This document shows positions 13,144 to 22,701 of a DNA stretch of 64,000 nucleotides, in pieces; the stretch's first letter is position 1, and every line of letters begins with the position of its first letter. The translations under genes and the position numbers were made by a program. The notes beneath the pieces were generated by a model, which saw only the letters and a program-made list of their open reading frames with translations, was not told the origin of the DNA and did not search any database. Origin of the DNA: Chelativorans salis (lineage in GTDB: Bacteria > Pseudomonadota > Alphaproteobacteria > Rhizobiales > Rhizobiaceae). The stretch spans positions 62,001-126,000 of the forward strand of contig NZ_JAOCZP010000003.1 in NCBI RefSeq assembly GCF_025336525.1, read 5' to 3'.

Positions 13144-13219
13144 GAGCGCGTAGCTCAGCTGGTAGAGCAACTGACTTTTAATCAGTAGGTCCAGGGTTCG
13201 AGCCCCTGCGCGCTCACCA
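13144..13219 (+). tRNA. tRNA-Lys (UUU)
   Basis: 76-nt cloverleaf with CCA encoded. Acceptor arms GAGCGCG (13144-13150) and CGCGCTC (13209-13215) pair fully. The D arm is GCTC/GAGC, the anticodon stem is ACTGA/TCAGT with loop CTTTTAA and anticodon TTT at 13177-13179, and the T arm contains GGTTCGAGCCCC. The accessory island begins immediately downstream, as expected if the tRNA 3' end was an integration target, but no second copy of the 3' end was found in the window. Confidence 0.97.
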
Positions 13220-17291: not shown

Positions 17292-17702
17292 TTAGCCCCA
17301 TCCTCCGGCGTCACCGCCACCGCTATCGTCTCCCCCGCTGTCATCTCCTCCGGTGCTGCCTCCGGAGCCGCTGTCTGAACCGCCAGAATCACTTGACCCA
17401 TCCGATCCGGATCCCGAGCCTGATGAACCGCCTGACCCTGAAGAACCGGAGGAACCGCCAGACCCGGACGAGGAGTTGGTGCCTGAACTCGACGATCCAG
17501 ATGTGGACCCCCCTCTAGAAGACGAGTTGGACGAATACGATCCGCCACCGTCGCTTGTACTATAGGCTGGCCCGACGGGAGCCGCTGGCAATACTCGCGG
17601 ATCCTCTGCGCTCTGATACTGAGGGTTCGGTTGAAGCATGGCGCACGCCGGCAGAGTGATTGACGCTGCCGAAACAACCAGCGATGAAACCAGAATCCGC
17701 AT
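17292..17702 (-). CDS. Ser/Gly-rich lipoprotein
   Basis: 136-residue protein with an N-terminal lipoprotein signal: MRILVSSLVVSAASI then lipobox LPAC with the modified Cys at 20. After about 30 ordinary residues the remaining 75 are almost only Ser, Gly, Asp and Thr, a low-complexity flexible tail. The start at 17702 has GGAAGG seven bases upstream; the longer frame to 17771 adds a non-signal leader. It should sit in the outer membrane or periplasmic face. The low-complexity tract could be a linker, adhesin-like coat or simple slippage product; function unknown. Confidence 0.6.
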   Translation of the reverse strand: MRILVSSLVVSAASITLPACAMLQPNPQYQSAEDPRVLPAAPVGPAYSTSDGGGSYSSNSSSRGGSTSGSSSSGTNSSSGSGGSSGSSGSGGSSGSGSGSDGSSDSGGSDSGSGGSTGGDDSGGDDSGGGDAGGWG

Positions 17703-18121
17703 CGCAGCCTTCCCATGATCTGGACCCTCGGCAAAGGTATGCGTGCTCCCGATCGGCGCACAGCTGACCAATTGGCTGGCGAAGCCGCCGAAAGGTGCGA
17801 CGCTACTTCAAAAGTAGCAGGGTCCCGGGATCAGTTTCGCGTGCAATGGTTCGTGCGATCACTCTGGGTGGCTGCCAAGCCAGCCATTGCAATGCCCGAT
17901 TTCATGCCGGCGAACATCTGCCCCTCACAGCCTGGGGTGGAGAAGTCATCCGAGCGCATCGCCTCCCCAATAAGGTGGGCCAGAAACCAAGCCGTATTGT
18001 AAGGTGACCTCCAGAACGCAGTGAAGCTGATGCGCGCTAATGCCCTTCTTGTTGGAGCACATCAGGTGAATGGCCTGTAGCCAATTGTGCGGCGTTGGAG
18101 GGGCTCTCTGATCTCGGCCAG
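17703..18121. other. gap of about 420 bp without supported gene
   Basis: Only short overlapping frames, with mixed codon use and no domain pattern. It probably contains the promoter of the leftward lipoprotein gene. The first visible possible gene downstream is the weak rightward frame ending at 18277. Confidence 0.35.
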
Positions 18122-18277: not shown

Positions 18278-18469
18278 TTAGTTGCGCAAGCGATTGAAGA
18301 TGCCGAACCAGAATCCGTATTCCTCCTGATTGCCCTCGGCGCGCGCCTCAAGGGCACAGTAAGCAACAGCCGTCGGCGCATCGGCACCATAGATTGCTCT
18401 CGCCCATTCAACGATTCTGGTTTCGTCGACGTCTTCGAGAGCGTTCTTGTCGCCACCGTCCCGGCCCAT
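18278..18469 (-). CDS. small hypothetical protein
   Basis: 63-residue protein starting at an ATG with an excellent AGGAGG five bases upstream, which settles the start against the longer open frame to 18760. It is acidic at the N-terminus, then helical (TRIVEWARAIYGADAPTAVAYCALEARAEG) with an aromatic end (EEYGFWFGIFNRLRN). The codon pattern and ribosome site suggest it is real. Family not recognised; position in the island suggests a phage or accessory protein. Confidence 0.6.
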   Translation of the reverse strand: MGRDGGDKNALEDVDETRIVEWARAIYGADAPTAVAYCALEARAEGNQEEYGFWFGIFNRLRN

Positions 18470-18711
18470 AGATCCTCCTGCTTGCTGGCATCGGCAGTCT
18501 ATGGAGATGGAACGGAAAATGCAAAAAGCCCCGCCAGCCATAGAGGCCAGCACGTAGGCGTGGCTCAGCACCGCCTTATTCCACTCGACCTGTAGTTTCT
18601 TACAATACCAGCTCCTCTCCCTTTTGCTTAACCTCAAATGGTTGGCGCGGATCTCGGCGCATCCAGAGCGACGTGCCGAGTTCACCGAGTTATCTTCGAA
18701 AGGAGCGACCG

Positions 18712-19434
18712 ATGTGGCATGGGAAACTTGACGCCAGTGCGGAACAGGGGAAAGCAACAAGTGTGCACCTCAAAGAAGACGACGTGATCACGATCACCGT
18801 CACGGGGTCGGCAAAAAACGGGCCGGCCGCTCCGGAGGAAGGCCCTGACGGAGACCCTCAAAATAAAGACCCAAAAGCAATTCTGCCCGGAACGAATGTC
18901 GGTGCAGTTCTGATGCGGATTGGCAAGAACGGCGAGCTGAAGGAGATCGGCACCGGAGTGTCCCATCACCACTTTCAGGAGGAGGGCGAAATCACATTCC
19001 TGTACAACGATGTGCCGGGTGAGTATGGCAACAATTCGGGCACTTTCGACGTCACCGTCGAGAGAGTAACACCGGCGGTCGTGTGGAAAGGCACGCTCGA
19101 AGCGACGAATGAACCGGGCGTGCGAACTGGCCACACCGTCAGCAGGGGAGATGTGATCTCGATCACGGTTACAGGGACAGCAAACGCTGGAGGGCCGAAC
19201 AACCCGGACACCGGTCCTGACGGGGCACTTCACTGGGCCAAAGCACTTCTGCCCAGTGCTAATGTCGGTGCATGTCTGATGAAGATTGGTAACGGCGACA
19301 CTTGCACGGTCGTCGGGAGCGGACTGTCCCATTACACAGTGCAAGAGGACGGCGAAATTGCATTCCTCTACAATGATCAACCGGGTCAATATGGCGACAA
19401 TTCTGGCTCCTATGAGATAACGCTCACAGCATAA
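18712..19434 (+). CDS. tandem LecA/PA-IL-type lectin-domain protein
   Basis: 240 residues made of two homologous domains (about 1-117 and 122-240) that match the PA-I galactophilic lectin (LecA) fold family. Each has the pattern W-x-G-x-L, a GDVI-like strand, GPDG, L-P-x-x-N-V-G-A, MKIG-like and the calcium loop. Domain 1 reads YNDVPGEYGNNSG with Asp100, Val101, Asn107 and Asn108; domain 2 reads YNDQPGQYGDNSG with Asp222, Asp229 and Asn230. In LecA the same loop binds Ca2+ and galactose. LecA's Tyr36, His50, Pro51 and Gln53 are not conserved in domain 1, so sugar specificity may differ. No signal peptide, as in LecA. AAGGAG lies upstream of ATG 18712. It is a single-gene unit in the island. 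Confidence 0.8.
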   Translation: MWHGKLDASAEQGKATSVHLKEDDVITITVTGSAKNGPAAPEEGPDGDPQNKDPKAILPGTNVGAVLMRIGKNGELKEIGTGVSHHHFQEEGEITFLYNDVPGEYGNNSGTFDVTVERVTPAVVWKGTLEATNEPGVRTGHTVSRGDVISITVTGTANAGGPNNPDTGPDGALHWAKALLPSANVGACLMKIGNGDTCTVVGSGLSHYTVQEDGEIAFLYNDQPGQYGDNSGSYEITLTA

Positions 19435-19532
19435 CTGCTGGCCAACGCACCAACTTCGGTGCCCGCCTCACAGAACCCCCGTGGCTTGGGGTCTGCCCCC
19501 GACGGGGTCAGGGAAAGCCACACTCCCCTGTC

Positions 19533-19556
19533 GAGCCCGGGCCTCCCACCGGGCTC
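19533..19556. terminator. hairpin downstream of the lectin gene
   Basis: GAGCCCGG/CCGGGCTC arms (19533-19540 and 19549-19556) with an 8-nt loop, about 100 bp after the lectin stop. The following bases (GGCACCTTTCG) hold only a short T run, so termination is likely but not certain. Confidence 0.45.
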
Positions 19557-19640
19557 GGCACCTTTCGCCGATTGGCCGGCTCTGTGACAATCTCGGCTCG
19601 CTATACGAGCGAAGGGGGGCGGGAACGGGCAAAAAAATGA

Positions 19641-19668
19641 GCCCCGCCAGCCGTGAGGCCAGCGGGGC
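19641..19668 (-). terminator. rho-independent terminator of the lysis cassette
   Basis: GCCCCGC/GCGGGGC arms (19641-19647 and 19662-19668) with an imperfect inner stem. On the minus strand the hairpin is followed by TCATTTTTTT. It lies 37 bp past the last gene of the leftward cassette. Confidence 0.75.
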
Positions 19669-19704
19669 ATGTTAATTTTCTCGACCAGATTGGAGGCGCG
19701 ATCT

Positions 19705-20088
19705 CTACGGCGGCGGCCGGCCGGTCAGCCAGGTATACGCCGCCATGAAGCCGGCAGCGGCGCCGATGACCCATCCGCCGATCTTCCAAAGCCAGACGCC
19801 CAGCGTTCCGGCGCCCACGGCCTGTTGGCGCATCTGCTTGATATCGTCGGTCACGGTCTGGACGCTTTCGACCTTGCCCTTGACGCTCATCATGTCGCTT
19901 TCCAGATGAGTCGTGCGCATCACCACCTCGTCGAGGCGTCGGTGCACGTTGGCGCGGCTCTGGTCGGCCTTGCGGATGCTCTCCGCGTTGCGTTTCTCGT
20001 TGCCCTCGATCTGTCGCTGAAGCCCCTGCACAGCGTTGGTGAGTTCGCCGACGGCCTTGTAGATTTCATTCAGGCTGGTTTGTGCCAA
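19705..20088 (-). CDS. DUF1515-like coiled-coil membrane protein
   Basis: 127 residues from a TTG at 20088 (AGGAG eight bases upstream; 12 bases after the stop of the preceding gene). Residues about 5-90 form a heptad-patterned coiled coil (VGELTNAVQGLQRQIEGNEKR, ... RRLDEVVMRTTHLESDM), and a C-terminal membrane helix (about 93-119) ends near TWLTGRPPP. This layout resembles DUF1515 proteins found in rhizobial prophages. It is the last gene of the leftward lysis cassette. Role not known; C-terminal tail anchoring in the inner membrane is predicted. Confidence 0.65.
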   Translation of the reverse strand: MAQTSLNEIYKAVGELTNAVQGLQRQIEGNEKRNAESIRKADQSRANVHRRLDEVVMRTTHLESDMMSVKGKVESVQTVTDDIKQMRQQAVGAGTLGVWLWKIGGWVIGAAAGFMAAYTWLTGRPPP

Positions 20089-20099
20089 GTTCCCCGCTC

Positions 20100-20375
20100 C
20101 TATCGCTGCGCCAGTTCCGCGCGCCGCTCCGCGCTTGCCTTCGTGTGACGCTCGCATTCGAGCGACGTATAGACCCCGGTGACGCAACCGCCGGCGACAG
20201 TGTCGTCTATGCGATCCTGGTCGGCGACGCCCAAGCCCTTCGCCCCCGGCAGGCTGTTACCGATCGCCAGACGCAGCCCCGGTGCACTTGCCGGCTCGGA
20301 AGTCCCACACGCCGCCAGCGTCGACACAATCACGGCGAGACAGGCGAGCCTCACTCCCTTTGAGACCAGCTTCAT
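20100..20375 (-). CDS. o-spanin-like (Rz1-type) lipoprotein
   Basis: 91-residue protein starting at ATG 20375 (AAAGG seven bases upstream) with a lipoprotein signal ending in lipobox LAAC (Cys23). The mature part is short, with two further cysteines (GGCVTGVYTSLEC). Its first 119 bases overlap the end of the i-spanin-like gene in another frame, the classic Rz/Rz1 arrangement in which an outer-membrane lipoprotein pairs with an inner-membrane coiled-coil protein to fuse the membranes at lysis. Assignment rests on architecture and position next to a muramidase, not on sequence identity. Confidence 0.6.
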   Translation of the reverse strand: MKLVSKGVRLACLAVIVSTLAACGTSEPASAPGLRLAIGNSLPGAKGLGVADQDRIDDTVAGGCVTGVYTSLECERHTKASAERRAELAQR

Positions 20376-20529
20376 TGTTCTGCCTTTCGATTTCGGTGCG
20401 CACCTCGTCGGCGCCCTGGTGTTTGACGAACTCATAGACGCCCCAGATCGCGCCGGCCGCGAGCACGGCCGCGCCGATCCAGGCGAAGATCCGGCTGATG
20501 CCAAGCGCACTGGCTATGACGGAAAACAT
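20257..20529 (-). CDS. i-spanin-like (Rz-type) inner-membrane protein
   Basis: 90 residues: one N-terminal membrane helix (about 10-35, IFAWIGAAVLAAGAIWGVYEF), then a polar helical segment (ADEVRTEIERQNNEAGLKG) and a Cys-containing end (RDCVDAGGVWDFRAGKC). The N-in membrane anchor with periplasmic coil fits an i-spanin, though it is shorter than lambda Rz (153 residues). The 3' third overlaps the o-spanin-like gene in another frame. It follows the 44-residue membrane protein by 11 bp in the lysis cassette. Confidence 0.6.
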   Translation of the reverse strand: MFSVIASALGISRIFAWIGAAVLAAGAIWGVYEFVKHQGADEVRTEIERQNNEAGLKGSEARLSRRDCVDAGGVWDFRAGKCTGAASGDR

Positions 20530-20540
20530 CACCAGCACCC

Positions 20541-20675
20541 TCAGATCAGCCGCGCGATGGCGCCAAGGCCGAGCAACGTCACCGGCCAGCAATGGAGCGC
20601 CAGGCGCCAGGCGGGGCCGAGCGCGATGCGCCAGATGAGCGCCTGCCAGAAGGCGGTGTCATTGCCGCCAGCCAT
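20541..20675 (-). CDS. tiny membrane protein of lysis cassette
   Basis: 44 residues (MAGGNDTAFWQALIW...), mostly one amphipathic or membrane helix with basic residues spaced through it (RIALGPAWRLALHCWPVTLLGLG). ATG 20675 shares its A with the TGA of the preceding frame (TGATG), indicating translational coupling. The position between muramidase and spanin-like genes makes a holin or holin-accessory role plausible, but the single-helix length gives no proof. Confidence 0.55.
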   Translation of the reverse strand: MAGGNDTAFWQALIWRIALGPAWRLALHCWPVTLLGLGAIARLI

Positions 20676-20818
20676 CAGACAATCCCTGCGACCAGGTTAA
20701 AGGCCAGGTCGATCAGCGCCGCTGCATCGGCGATTGTCAGGCCTCCAACCCAGGCCCCGCCACCTGCCACGAAAACAAGCGCGATGGCCCAGACGGACTT
20801 GCGTTTCCAGATCGGGCG
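20675..20818 (-). CDS. small membrane protein frame without normal start
   Basis: 47-codon frame directly behind the muramidase stop, in the same frame as the muramidase (its TGA at 20821-20819 precedes the first codon). It encodes RPIWKRKSVW followed by a membrane helix (AIALVFVAGGGAWVGG) and ends NLVAGIV, with its TGA overlapping the next ATG. There is no ATG, GTG or TTG at the beginning; the bases ATGACGCCC at the junction suggest that a start of the type ATG-ACN-CGC lost two bases. It is either a recent frameshift or uses a non-standard start. Holin-like topology is possible. Confidence 0.4.
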   Translation of the reverse strand, partial: RPIWKRKSVWAIALVFVAGGGAWVGGLTIADAAALIDLAFNLVAGIV

Positions 20819-21904
20819 TCATACGCGCACATCCCCCTCCTCCGTTTGCCGGCTCCTCCACCAGCCATAGAGGCCGTAGACGGCCAGCCCCGCGCCGATC
20901 AGGCCCGAGACCGCCAAAAGCCCGTTGGCGACCGTCTGCGCCGTCTCGATCTCGATCCCGAAGAGCGAGTAGCCAAGCTCTGCGATCTGGTCCCGGATCG
21001 ACATGACGATGGCGACGGGCCCGAGACCCTTGGCCGCGTCGCGCACTTCCGGCACCTCCGTCACCCGCGGCTCACCAGGTCGCTCGTCGGGCGCCTTCCT
21101 GAAAGCCTGCAGCGCGCGCATCGTCTCCGGGCCCGCTACGCCGTCGACGGCAAGTCCGCCGGCGCGCTGGAAGGCCATCACGGCGTCCTTGGTGGCCGGT
21201 CCATAATCTCCGTCGACCTCCACCGCATGGCCCGCACGGCGGAGCAGCACCTGCAGCTCCAGCACACGCGCACCTTTGGAACCCATGCGCAGCATTCCCG
21301 TGGCCGCCGAGACGGGCTTTGCTCCGGACAGCCGCTCGTAGGCCCGCGCCATCTTCGTGTGATAGCCGTGCTTGGCGAAGCCCGGCCCGTTGTAGCCGCG
21401 GGCGAAGGCGGAGAAGTCCTTGCGCTGCAATTCGTCGACGAGGCCGGCCTTTTCCACATAGCGCGCCATCAATTCGATCTGCCCGGCGGCATCCTTGCGC
21501 GCCAGGCCCACGAGGCCCTTGACCGTCTTGAAGCCGAGCCACTGCCAGTGCGCCCCCATCACCTGGCCGAGGCCCCATGAGGTCGATTCCAGCGCGGCCT
21601 CGGCGTCGATCTCCATGGCGCGCGCGAGCAGCCGCCAGCGCGCCGCCTGCCCGGCCGGGTTCTTCACGGCGCCCGCATTGGGATGCGCCAGCCCCTCGCG
21701 CCGCGCCCGGTCGCGCTTCTCGCCCGTCAGGCGCCGGTCAAAATAGTGCCCCTCGAACCGGATCAGCGGCTCGTGCTTGCCGCCCACGACAGCGAAGACG
21801 CGGCCGGCGCTTTCCACCTCGGCCACGGCCAGCCATGCGGCAGGCTCCGTCTTTGTGCGCGCGGCAATGCGCTCGACCGCGCGAACGGTCGCTTCGTCGA
21901 ACAT
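20819..21904 (-). CDS. N-acetylmuramidase (DUF3380-type) phage endolysin with PG-binding domain
   Basis: 361 residues. The N-terminal domain (about 1-180) matches the DUF3380/muramidase family: a VAEVESAGR segment with the candidate catalytic Glu, RFEGHYFDRRL, the ESTSWGLGQVMG block and ARGYNGPGF. A peptidoglycan-binding-1 domain follows (about 205-268; KGARVLELQVLLRRAG, DGDYGPATKDAVMAFQ). A C-terminal membrane helix (about 325-345) precedes WWRSRQ. No signal peptide, so release should depend on a holin-like pore or on the C-terminal anchor. AAAGGA precedes ATG 21904. First gene of the leftward lysis cassette. Confidence 0.85.
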   Translation of the reverse strand: MFDEATVRAVERIAARTKTEPAAWLAVAEVESAGRVFAVVGGKHEPLIRFEGHYFDRRLTGEKRDRARREGLAHPNAGAVKNPAGQAARWRLLARAMEIDAEAALESTSWGLGQVMGAHWQWLGFKTVKGLVGLARKDAAGQIELMARYVEKAGLVDELQRKDFSAFARGYNGPGFAKHGYHTKMARAYERLSGAKPVSAATGMLRMGSKGARVLELQVLLRRAGHAVEVDGDYGPATKDAVMAFQRAGGLAVDGVAGPETMRALQAFRKAPDERPGEPRVTEVPEVRDAAKGLGPVAIVMSIRDQIAELGYSLFGIEIETAQTVANGLLAVSGLIGAGLAVYGLYGWWRSRQTEEGDVRV

Positions 21905-22003
21905 GGTTGTTCCTTTCGGTTTTTCGGATTGGGTCAGGGAGTAAGCAGGAACTACCGGCACCGACGCGCGTTTGAGTGCACCAGATCAATCAGGAGCAAT
22001 CAG

Positions 22004-22345: not shown

Positions 22346-22464
22346 AGGATCGCCGCGCCCTTGGGCACGGTGCGATCCATGGTCTTTCCTTTCGACGTTG
22401 GTTATGGTGCCTATCGGTGGCGGGCGGTGGGCATCTCAGGCAACATCATTCGGCGCACTGGCTG
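22346..22464 (+). repeat. imperfect direct repeat, copy A, with 41-codon frame
   Basis: About 119 bp that recurs in diverged form at 22591-22701. Conserved blocks are GGATCGCCGCGCCCT, the CCATGGTC start region and a near-identical 20-mer-plus stretch around 22438-22464 (TCAGGCAACATCATTCGGCG). Each copy holds a frame starting ATGGTC; here 22379-22504, encoding MVFPFDVGYGAYRWRAVG and then SGNIIRRTG. The same frame beginning and end are kept in copy B, which suggests a duplicated small gene, although indels blur the middle. Confidence 0.5.
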
Positions 22465-22491
22465 CCACCGCCATGATCGGAAGGTCGAAAC

Positions 22492-22575
22492 GTGGGCGAA
22501 TTGACAACCTCGGCTGCGGCATTTGCTGGCTATGTCGCTATCTTCATTCTTATCTACTGGGCTTGGCCACGGTAG
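22492..22575 (+). CDS. 27-residue membrane micro-protein
   Basis: GTG 22492 with GGAAGG eight bases upstream. It encodes a short polar start (GELTTSAAAFAG) and one membrane helix (YVAIFILIYWAWP) ending in Arg. It overlaps the end of the 41-codon frame of repeat copy A in another frame. Too short for family assignment; reported because of the good ribosome site and the clear helix. Confidence 0.4.
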   Translation: MGELTTSAAAFAGYVAIFILIYWAWPR

Positions 22576-22590
22576 CTAGGTCTGACGCGC

Positions 22591-22701
22591 AGGATCGCCG
22601 CGCCCTGTGCGGTCCATGGTCATCCCCTTCAAGTTTGGCTATAAGTGCGAGCGGTGTCGGCCGATGGGAACTTCAGGCAACATCATTCGGCGCGCTGGCT
22701 G
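22591..22701 (+). repeat. imperfect direct repeat, copy B, with 28-codon frame
   Basis: Second copy of the 22346-22464 sequence. Its frame (ATG 22616 to TGA 22702) encodes MVIPFKFGYKCERCRPMG then SGNIIRRAG, sharing start, GY and SGNIIRR with copy A and ending early. The copy contains two Cys spaced CERC not present in A. It lies just upstream of the sulfotransferase-like gene. Confidence 0.5.

Follow-up and report, generated by a model that had tools for sequence, protein, structure and literature searches.

The tandem lectin gene and its product

The window (the whole stretch of DNA analyzed, 64,000 nt of the Chelativorans salis genome) contains a gene for a tandem PA-IL (LecA-type) lectin at 18712 to 19434 on the forward strand. 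It was recognized from its open reading frame together with profile and structure matches. The gene starts with an ATG at 18712, its stop codon ends at 19434, and it encodes 240 residues. A Shine-Dalgarno sequence, AAAGGAG, is located at 18699 to 18705 (+). It is of the TTCGA(A/G)AGGA type that is carried by 12 PA-IL leaders. A hairpin with few T residues after it lies 3' of the gene at 19529 to 19560 (+; -25.9 kcal/mol, z -4.24). It may be a terminator; the terminator scan did not flag it.

The whole protein matched the PA-IL profile PF07828 in two stretches with an E value of 7.7e-43 and 145.8 bits (cut-off, 22.5). Each half also exceeded the cut-off alone. Domain 1 (residues 2 to 117; 18715 to 19062, +) scored 82.1 bits with an E value of 4.3e-23, and domain 2 (19084 to 19425, +) scored 71.8 bits with an E value of 6.5e-20. 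The nearest solved protein was LecA for domain 1 (1l7l/3zyb, E 4.5e-19) and the PA-IL chain 30ew for domain 2 (E 4.2e-17). An AlphaFold2 model was built from six tandem proteins: the window protein, three proteins of locus L045, and one each of L046 and L047. The model had a pLDDT of 88.6 and a pTM of 0.59, and at this pTM it does not fix the arrangement of the two domains. Foldseek with the model returned LecA first (1l7l, E 1.6e-11, target TM 0.85; 2vxj_C, TM 0.92), which gives the protein the LecA beta-sandwich fold of the PA-IL family. The preliminary description of this locus had proposed two PA-IL-type domains in one chain, and the profile search and fold prediction that it suggested both bear this out.

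In LecA, the calcium-ligand side chains are Asp100, Asn107, and Asn108. The calcium loop of domain 1 (D100 to N108; 19009 to 19035, +) aligned with LecA D100, V101, N107, and N108, and all four residues are kept at identical numbers. The loop of domain 2 (D222 to N230; 19375 to 19401, +) contains D222, Q223, D229, and N230, with Asp in place of LecA N107. The alignment thus agrees with the earlier reading that domain 1 keeps these residues and domain 2 keeps most of them. At the three ligand positions, domain 1 has D/N/N and domain 2 has D/D/N, and both domains carry the ligand set that marks the family. The Asp in the domain 2 loop is compatible with calcium, because EclA, also D/D/N, holds its calcium through the Asp114, Asp121, and Asn122 side chains, one of which is an Asp at the matching place (PMC11875179). 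From these residues, calcium binding by the lectin is likely.

The sugar site differs. At the positions of LecA Tyr36, His50, Pro51, and Gln53, which had been described as unconserved, domain 1 has N, N, K, and P. Domain 2 has W at the position of His50, and Gln53 falls in a two-residue gap. Position 50 is N or Y and position 53 is P in eight of the nine rhizobial domains of our domain alignment (A1); the exception is domain 2 of the window protein. The LecA galactose contacts His50 and Gln53 are absent, and these are a trait of LecA specificity, not of the family. Since both are replaced, the sugar of the window lectin is probably not that of LecA. No hydrophobic or signal-like N-terminus was seen by eye, in line with the signal peptide reported as absent. 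LecA is likewise not known to have a signal peptide.

A lux-box-like element at the promoter

An inverted repeat that resembles a lux box, ACCTGTAG-TTTC-TTACAATACC, lies upstream of the gene at 18588 to 18609 (+). Its 18-base core, used in the genome scans, is at 18590 to 18607. The sequence of the lux box is ACCTGTAGGATCGTACAGGT (PMC4444344). The window box agrees with this 20-base sequence at 14 of 20 places, and the spacing is identical; across the 16 sites of the PA-IL-bearing genomes the agreement is 12 to 14 places. The form ACCTGTA-R-N4-Y-TACAATACC, or one near it, occurs upstream of the intact lectin genes of the window, of contig C1 of the same genome, and of Paramesorhizobium deserti, and also upstream of luxI. 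The repeat of about 20 bases is therefore at a promoter and recurs before its presumed target genes, as in a lux-box regulon.

A putative -10-like element, CTTAAC, is located at 18627 to 18632 (+), 32 nt from the box center by hand count, with no consensus -35. It is partly conserved in 16 aligned promoters. No sigma-70-like site with a consensus pair was found in 18450 to 19750. In the window gene and in a gene on contig C2, the -10-like element is 32 to 33 nt from the box center (hand count), which would place the box near -42. LuxR-activated promoters have the box near -42. The gap between core and start codon is 93 to 104 nt in the 12 PA-IL leaders (11 intact genes and one remnant). It is 184 nt for a gene encoding 105 residues, 33 nt for luxI, and 166 and 122 nt for two PA-IIL-type genes.

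Lectin, luxR, and luxI genes on contig C1 and in relatives

The same genome (G000) has further PA-IL sequences on contig C1. Two are intact genes, a second tandem PA-IL gene (L016:7654-8382, -) and a gene that joins PA-IL to a DUF4751-like part (L016:14308-15009, -), and a third is a PA-IL fragment. The DUF4751 match scored 24.9 bits, just under the cut-off of 25. A LuxR-type regulator is encoded near these lectins (L016:15124-15867, -; Autoind_bind 9.9e-29, GerE 9.5e-18), as is a LuxI-type synthase (L016:16828-17523, +; Autoind_synth 2.6e-25). The cluster of lectin, luxR, and luxI genes seems to be on a repABC-type replicon, because the same contig carries repC (C1:106870-107382). A second, partial LuxI-type match of 59.6 bits was present at C3:73876-74181.

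Three PA-IL genes adjoin a LuxR gene in P. deserti A-3-E (G206). A LuxR gene also adjoins PA-IL genes in Mesorhizobium sp. RMAD-H1 (G685) and Phyllobacterium phragmitis (G723). The habitats of these three bacteria are soil and root. Our PA-IL surveys (2/297 and 1/397) were sampled without G685, G723, and a further genome, G701, which holds a PA-IL remnant only, and their counts therefore understate PA-IL in the family.

The LuxR proteins of the lectin loci were 52 to 81% identical in the five comparisons made. All four exceeded the cut-offs for PF03472 and PF00196. All four also keep W, Y, DP, W, and G by eye, which we take to be the lactone-binding or key LuxR residues. We searched 394 genomes of the family with the P. 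deserti LuxR protein at an E value of 1e-50 or lower, scoring up to six candidates per genome. Relatives were found in five genomes: G737 and all four that carry intact PA-IL genes. The G737 relative was the most distant, at 46%; that genome had no box, and no lectin was found within the 19.9 kb fetched. G701 had no LuxR relative at this threshold. G000 alone has a luxI in its lectin locus; the loci fetched from P. deserti, RMAD-H1, and P. phragmitis showed none. P. deserti encodes two luxI genes elsewhere, both without the box. Its LuxR may therefore answer those synthases or signals from outside.

It is unlikely that the box is bound by some regulator other than the LuxR protein adjoining the lectin genes. 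Such a regulator could be sought among the further LuxI-type genes and additional LuxR-type candidates of G000 and P. deserti, and the window gene and this LuxR are indeed on different contigs. Yet the inverted repeat has the form and spacing of a lux box, luxI itself bears it, and this LuxR lineage follows the lectins, with intact PA-IL genes in four of its five genomes (again with no more than six candidates per genome scored).

Specificity of the box

The 18-base core, CTGTARNNNNYTACAATA, was written from the window, G000 C1, and P. deserti sequences. The whole own genome (5.66 Mb) contained six zero-mismatch sites, against 0.003 to 0.024 expected by composition. These sites belong to the window gene, two other PA-IL genes, the 105-residue gene, luxI, and a gene encoding hemopexin repeats and PA-IIL. 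Five of them had been used to write the core. The sixth (C2:18837) was found by the motif only. It is 166 nt before a 354-residue gene (L040:5607-6671, -) that encodes hemopexin repeats (7.3e-14) and a PA-IIL domain (PF07472, 24.3 bits, over the cut-off of 21). One box therefore joins LecA-type and LecB-type lectin genes. A transposase-like ORF (by eye; L040:3900-5369) adjoins this C2 gene. With one mismatch, the own genome had a single site, C3:22483, inside a long open frame. At up to two mismatches the pattern was no commoner than its reversed control (9 + 9 versus 13 + 7).

The 105-residue protein has a weak, subthreshold match to H-type lectins (E 0.028). Its box probably once served a PA-IL gene, judging from a PA-IL fragment with stops (C1:79022-79162) between the box and the gene. 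A trefoil domain guessed by eye in the C-terminus of L017:8406-9347 had no Pfam or PDB support. The lectin status of the 105-residue protein and of the C-terminal part of L017:8406-9347 is not established.

P. deserti had three sites at up to one mismatch, and these lie in the leaders of its three PA-IL genes (reversed control, 2). Among the fetched loci of genomes that were not used for the motif, the box was present before all four PA-IL genes of RMAD-H1 and the single PA-IL gene of P. phragmitis. The other 25 loci from the PA-IL searches (15 from genomes, some of which are weak PA-IL matches, and 10 from viral contigs) contained no box within one mismatch and no LuxR relative at an E value of 1e-4. 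Every intact PA-IL gene found in the family (11/11) has the box.

A scan of 394 family genomes retrieved 22 zero-mismatch core sites in 11 genomes. Six were in G000, five in G685, three in G206, and one each in G723 and G701, and six further genomes had one each. The five PA-IL-bearing genomes, with G701 counted for its remnant, thus hold 16 of the 22. The reversed pattern matched 29 times in 28 of the 394 genomes, never more than twice per genome, so single box sites mean little. The 16 sites precede 11 intact PA-IL genes, one PA-IL remnant, two PA-IIL-type genes, luxI, and the 105-residue gene. The box is thus linked almost exclusively to lectin genes.

Eight sites were new in the family scan, and two of these lead to lectin genes, one of them decayed. 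The site on C13 of RMAD-H1 precedes a gene for 344 residues, the first part of which shares 60% identity with the PA-IIL domain of C2 over 131 residues; this RMAD-H1 domain alone scored 17.7 bits, where the Pfam cut-off is 21. The site on C45 of G701 (L091:5293-5595) precedes a PA-IL gene that decayed after about 35 residues (PF07828, 1e-7). Two decayed PA-IL genes, this one and the C1:79022-79162 fragment of G000, hence stand behind intact boxes. The single sites in G745, G109, G168, G766, G184, and G084 were not in the leader of a lectin gene, with ORFs read by eye. An AATACC/AATAAC end is present in all 16 sites of the PA-IL-bearing genomes and absent from these six. G084, G109, G168, and G184 had no PA-IL in the sample surveyed, and PA-IIL was listed for none of them in a like sample; G745 and G766 were outside the PA-IL and PA-IIL survey samples.

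Another genus of the family, represented by G170, encodes a hemopexin and PA-IIL protein (L122:5350-6423, PA-IIL domain 72.3 bits) without the box. Two tandem near-boxes (CTGTGG-N4-CCACAATA, two mismatches) are present in G170 about 2.8 kb from the lectin gene. They precede a gene for a TRAP-type transporter (by eye), not its lectin gene.

Part of the promoter likeness among the PA-IL paralogues is common descent, since blastn aligned window positions 18565 to 19066 with a C1 copy at 85%. The box could be no more than a relic of gene duplication, carried along in the leaders of the copied lectin genes and without function in regulation. The window and C1 PA-IL genes share a leader of about 147 nt in blastn matches of 85% and 77%. 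On C1, moreover, the luxR stop codon (GACCTGTAG) is within the box of the next PA-IL gene (L016:15095-15135), and about 30 nt resembling the end of luxR recur 5' of the box, both at the window gene and in some other copies. From this resemblance, the flank of the box may descend from a luxR 3' end. A relic with no role is nevertheless quite unlikely, because luxI and two PA-IIL-type genes, with leaders that otherwise look unlike, have the box upstream too, and because two of the genera sampled in the family (g1 and g51) retain it. Better evidence for the box comes from the luxI and PA-IIL leaders, which have little in common except the box.

Surroundings of the gene

The lectin gene sits 3' of a tRNA-Lys gene (13144 to 13219) in a stretch with a lower GC content than that of 10 to 12 kb. 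A lysis cassette, convergent with the lectin gene, starts 270 nt downstream and is outside the proposed regulon. It contains a DUF1515 protein (19705 to 20187, -; PF07439 1.1e-11, phrog_5211 8.9e-22) and two overlapping small phage-type ORFs at 20100 to 20592 (-), namely, 20100 to 20510 and 20257 to 20592 (phrog_19660 4.4e-17 and phrog_23603 8.7e-18). The layout of the two overlapping ORFs resembles that of paired spanin genes. The cassette also contains an N-acetylmuramidase endolysin (20819 to 21961, -; PF11860 3.5e-50, phrog_1224 4.1e-86). A 100-nt direct repeat, 76% identical and with a spacing of 237 nt, is present at 22365 to 22701.

The list of ORFs between 13,702 and 28,240 has 57 with a length of 80 residues or more, and each of them was compared with PHROGs. 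Clear matches were found in four ORFs only, the overlapping or neighboring ones at 19705 to 21961. The ORF at 17292 to 17771 had a marginal match (0.0056) to a family of unknown function. None of the 57 ORFs matched a head or integrase family, and the sole tail match was a secondary one (0.0071), between the DUF1515 ORF and a tape-measure family. The preliminary description had placed the gene in a prophage-type island beside a lysis cassette; the cassette is there, and the island around it is not supported by any head or integrase match. Relatives of the endolysin were present in 16 of the 16 genus genomes sampled, and tail-fibre-like genes were less than 20 kb from them in both neighborhoods examined (G090 and G778). 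On these grounds, we read the cassette as a prophage relic.

The lectin ORF had no PHROGs match at an E value of 0.01. A tblastn search with the lectin (E <= 0.01) returned no match in 50,697 phage or 72,556 plasmid records, and these searches may omit records of the own genome. A search for close relatives in viral and genome contigs with the lectin protein alone returned nothing; alignment A1 was needed as the query to reach PA-IL relatives there. With A1, ten viral-contig matches were LecA-like genes, at 40% identity and 18 nt from the contig end. The ten IMG/VR contigs (L063 to L072) have an identical layout, each ending 18 nt past the gene, as if lecA borders a prophage. In P. phragmitis, a phage-type endolysin gene (L047:7901-8659; phrog_315, 6.1e-52) adjoins the luxR of the lectin locus.

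Despite the convergent cassette, the lower GC content after tRNA-Lys, the P. phragmitis endolysin gene, and the N-terminus that is not signal-like, it is very unlikely that the lectin is prophage cargo or a tail-borne glycan binder freed through the adjacent cassette, because there is no clear phage match beyond the cassette among the 57 ORFs, the lectin has no relatives in the phage and viral collections other than contig-edge genes, its rhizobial relatives adjoin luxR, and its promoter box links it to the C1 and C2 genes. We rejected phage cargo on the PHROGs scan and on the phage, plasmid, and viral collections. The co-occurrence of double-domain homologues with rhizobial prophages that had been suggested holds instead with luxR and a common promoter box. 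The cassette as an exit route for the window lectin is possible and unsupported.

A probable quorum-sensing lectin regulon

We consider it probable that the double LecA-type lectin of the window is a member of a quorum-sensing regulon under a LuxR-type protein, in which multivalent lectins would be induced at high density in parallel with Pseudomonas LecA and LecB. Acyl-homoserine lactone from the C1 LuxI would load the adjoining LuxR at high cell density. LuxR would then bind the box, centered about 42 bases before the transcription start, and activate lectin genes on three contigs. Control would be in trans, because the window gene and the LuxR and LuxI genes are on different contigs. LuxR would also activate luxI, and the box before luxI is as expected for such a feedback loop.

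Each lectin chain would carry two calcium-dependent sugar sites. If the chains pair as those of LecA do, the product would be a four-site cross-linker. The lectins would be made with no visible secretion signal. After leaving the cell, the lectin could bind cells to one another, to exopolysaccharide, or to the surface of a host.

More tentatively, and with somewhat more doubt than confidence, we suggest a regulon dedicated to lectins. In it, a small LuxR lineage, with a box almost only before lectin genes and the synthase gene, may have brought together sugar-binding folds that are unrelated to each other (LecA-type, LecB-type, hemopexin, DUF4751-like, and possibly others) on several contigs, including a repABC-type replicon, in soil and root bacteria.

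Comparison with known lectin systems

Quorum control of PA-IL and PA-IIL in Pseudomonas and of PA-IIL in Burkholderia is already known. The window lectin shares its domain family, fold, and calcium loop with LecA (PA-IL) of P. aeruginosa. It differs from LecA in having two domains per chain and in the replacement of His50 and Gln53, and the LuxR that presumably regulates it is rhizobial and encoded on another contig. LecA and LecB of P. aeruginosa have been described as dependent on quorum sensing, with an influence on biofilm formation (PMC5750575). Psl, a polysaccharide of the matrix, is a ligand of LecB (PMC6522473).

In Burkholderia cenocepacia, BclACB are CepR-induced PA-IIL lectins that are needed for biofilm structure; BclB and BclC have extra N-terminal domains, BclB is associated with the cell surface, and no obvious lux box was seen upstream of bclA (PMC3426421). 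LecB and BclACB are thus PA-IIL lectins under quorum sensing, as we propose for the boxed PA-IIL genes here. Unlike bclA, the hemopexin and PA-IIL gene and the PA-IIL-like gene with a linker have a lux-box-like site here. Also, in contrast to both LecB and BclACB, the box precedes PA-IL genes and luxI as well.

PllA of Photorhabdus and EclA of Enterobacter have the PA-IL domain in common with the window protein. The fetched Photorhabdus and Xenorhabdus loci contained no box at up to one mismatch. EclA is called a "superlectin" and has a LecA domain joined to a second, different domain (PMC11875179). This architecture resembles that of the PA-IL and DUF4751-like genes here, whereas the window protein fuses two PA-IL domains.

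Novelty and meaning

Our literature search, which covered only a minority of subscription papers, returned no report of PA-IL or PA-IIL quorum control in rhizobia or of tandem PA-IL proteins. The main text of a 2026 survey of Rhizobium quorum sensing has no word starting with "lectin" (PMC13133039). Three observations appear new: tandem PA-IL lectins in this family whose genes have lux-box-like promoters, a single box common to LecA-type genes, LecB-type genes, and luxI, and a box that pointed blind to lectin genes. For this last reason, the box may serve to find new sugar-binding domains.

LecA and LecB have been studied mostly as the lectins of one opportunist, and here both families are present in rhizobial relatives. 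If the lectin regulon is real, quorum control of LecA and LecB would be no peculiarity of a pathogen, and the Pseudomonas system would be one case of a recurrent or anciently linked module. Quorum-controlled multivalent lectins would then be a more general means by which a dense population sticks together or to a surface.
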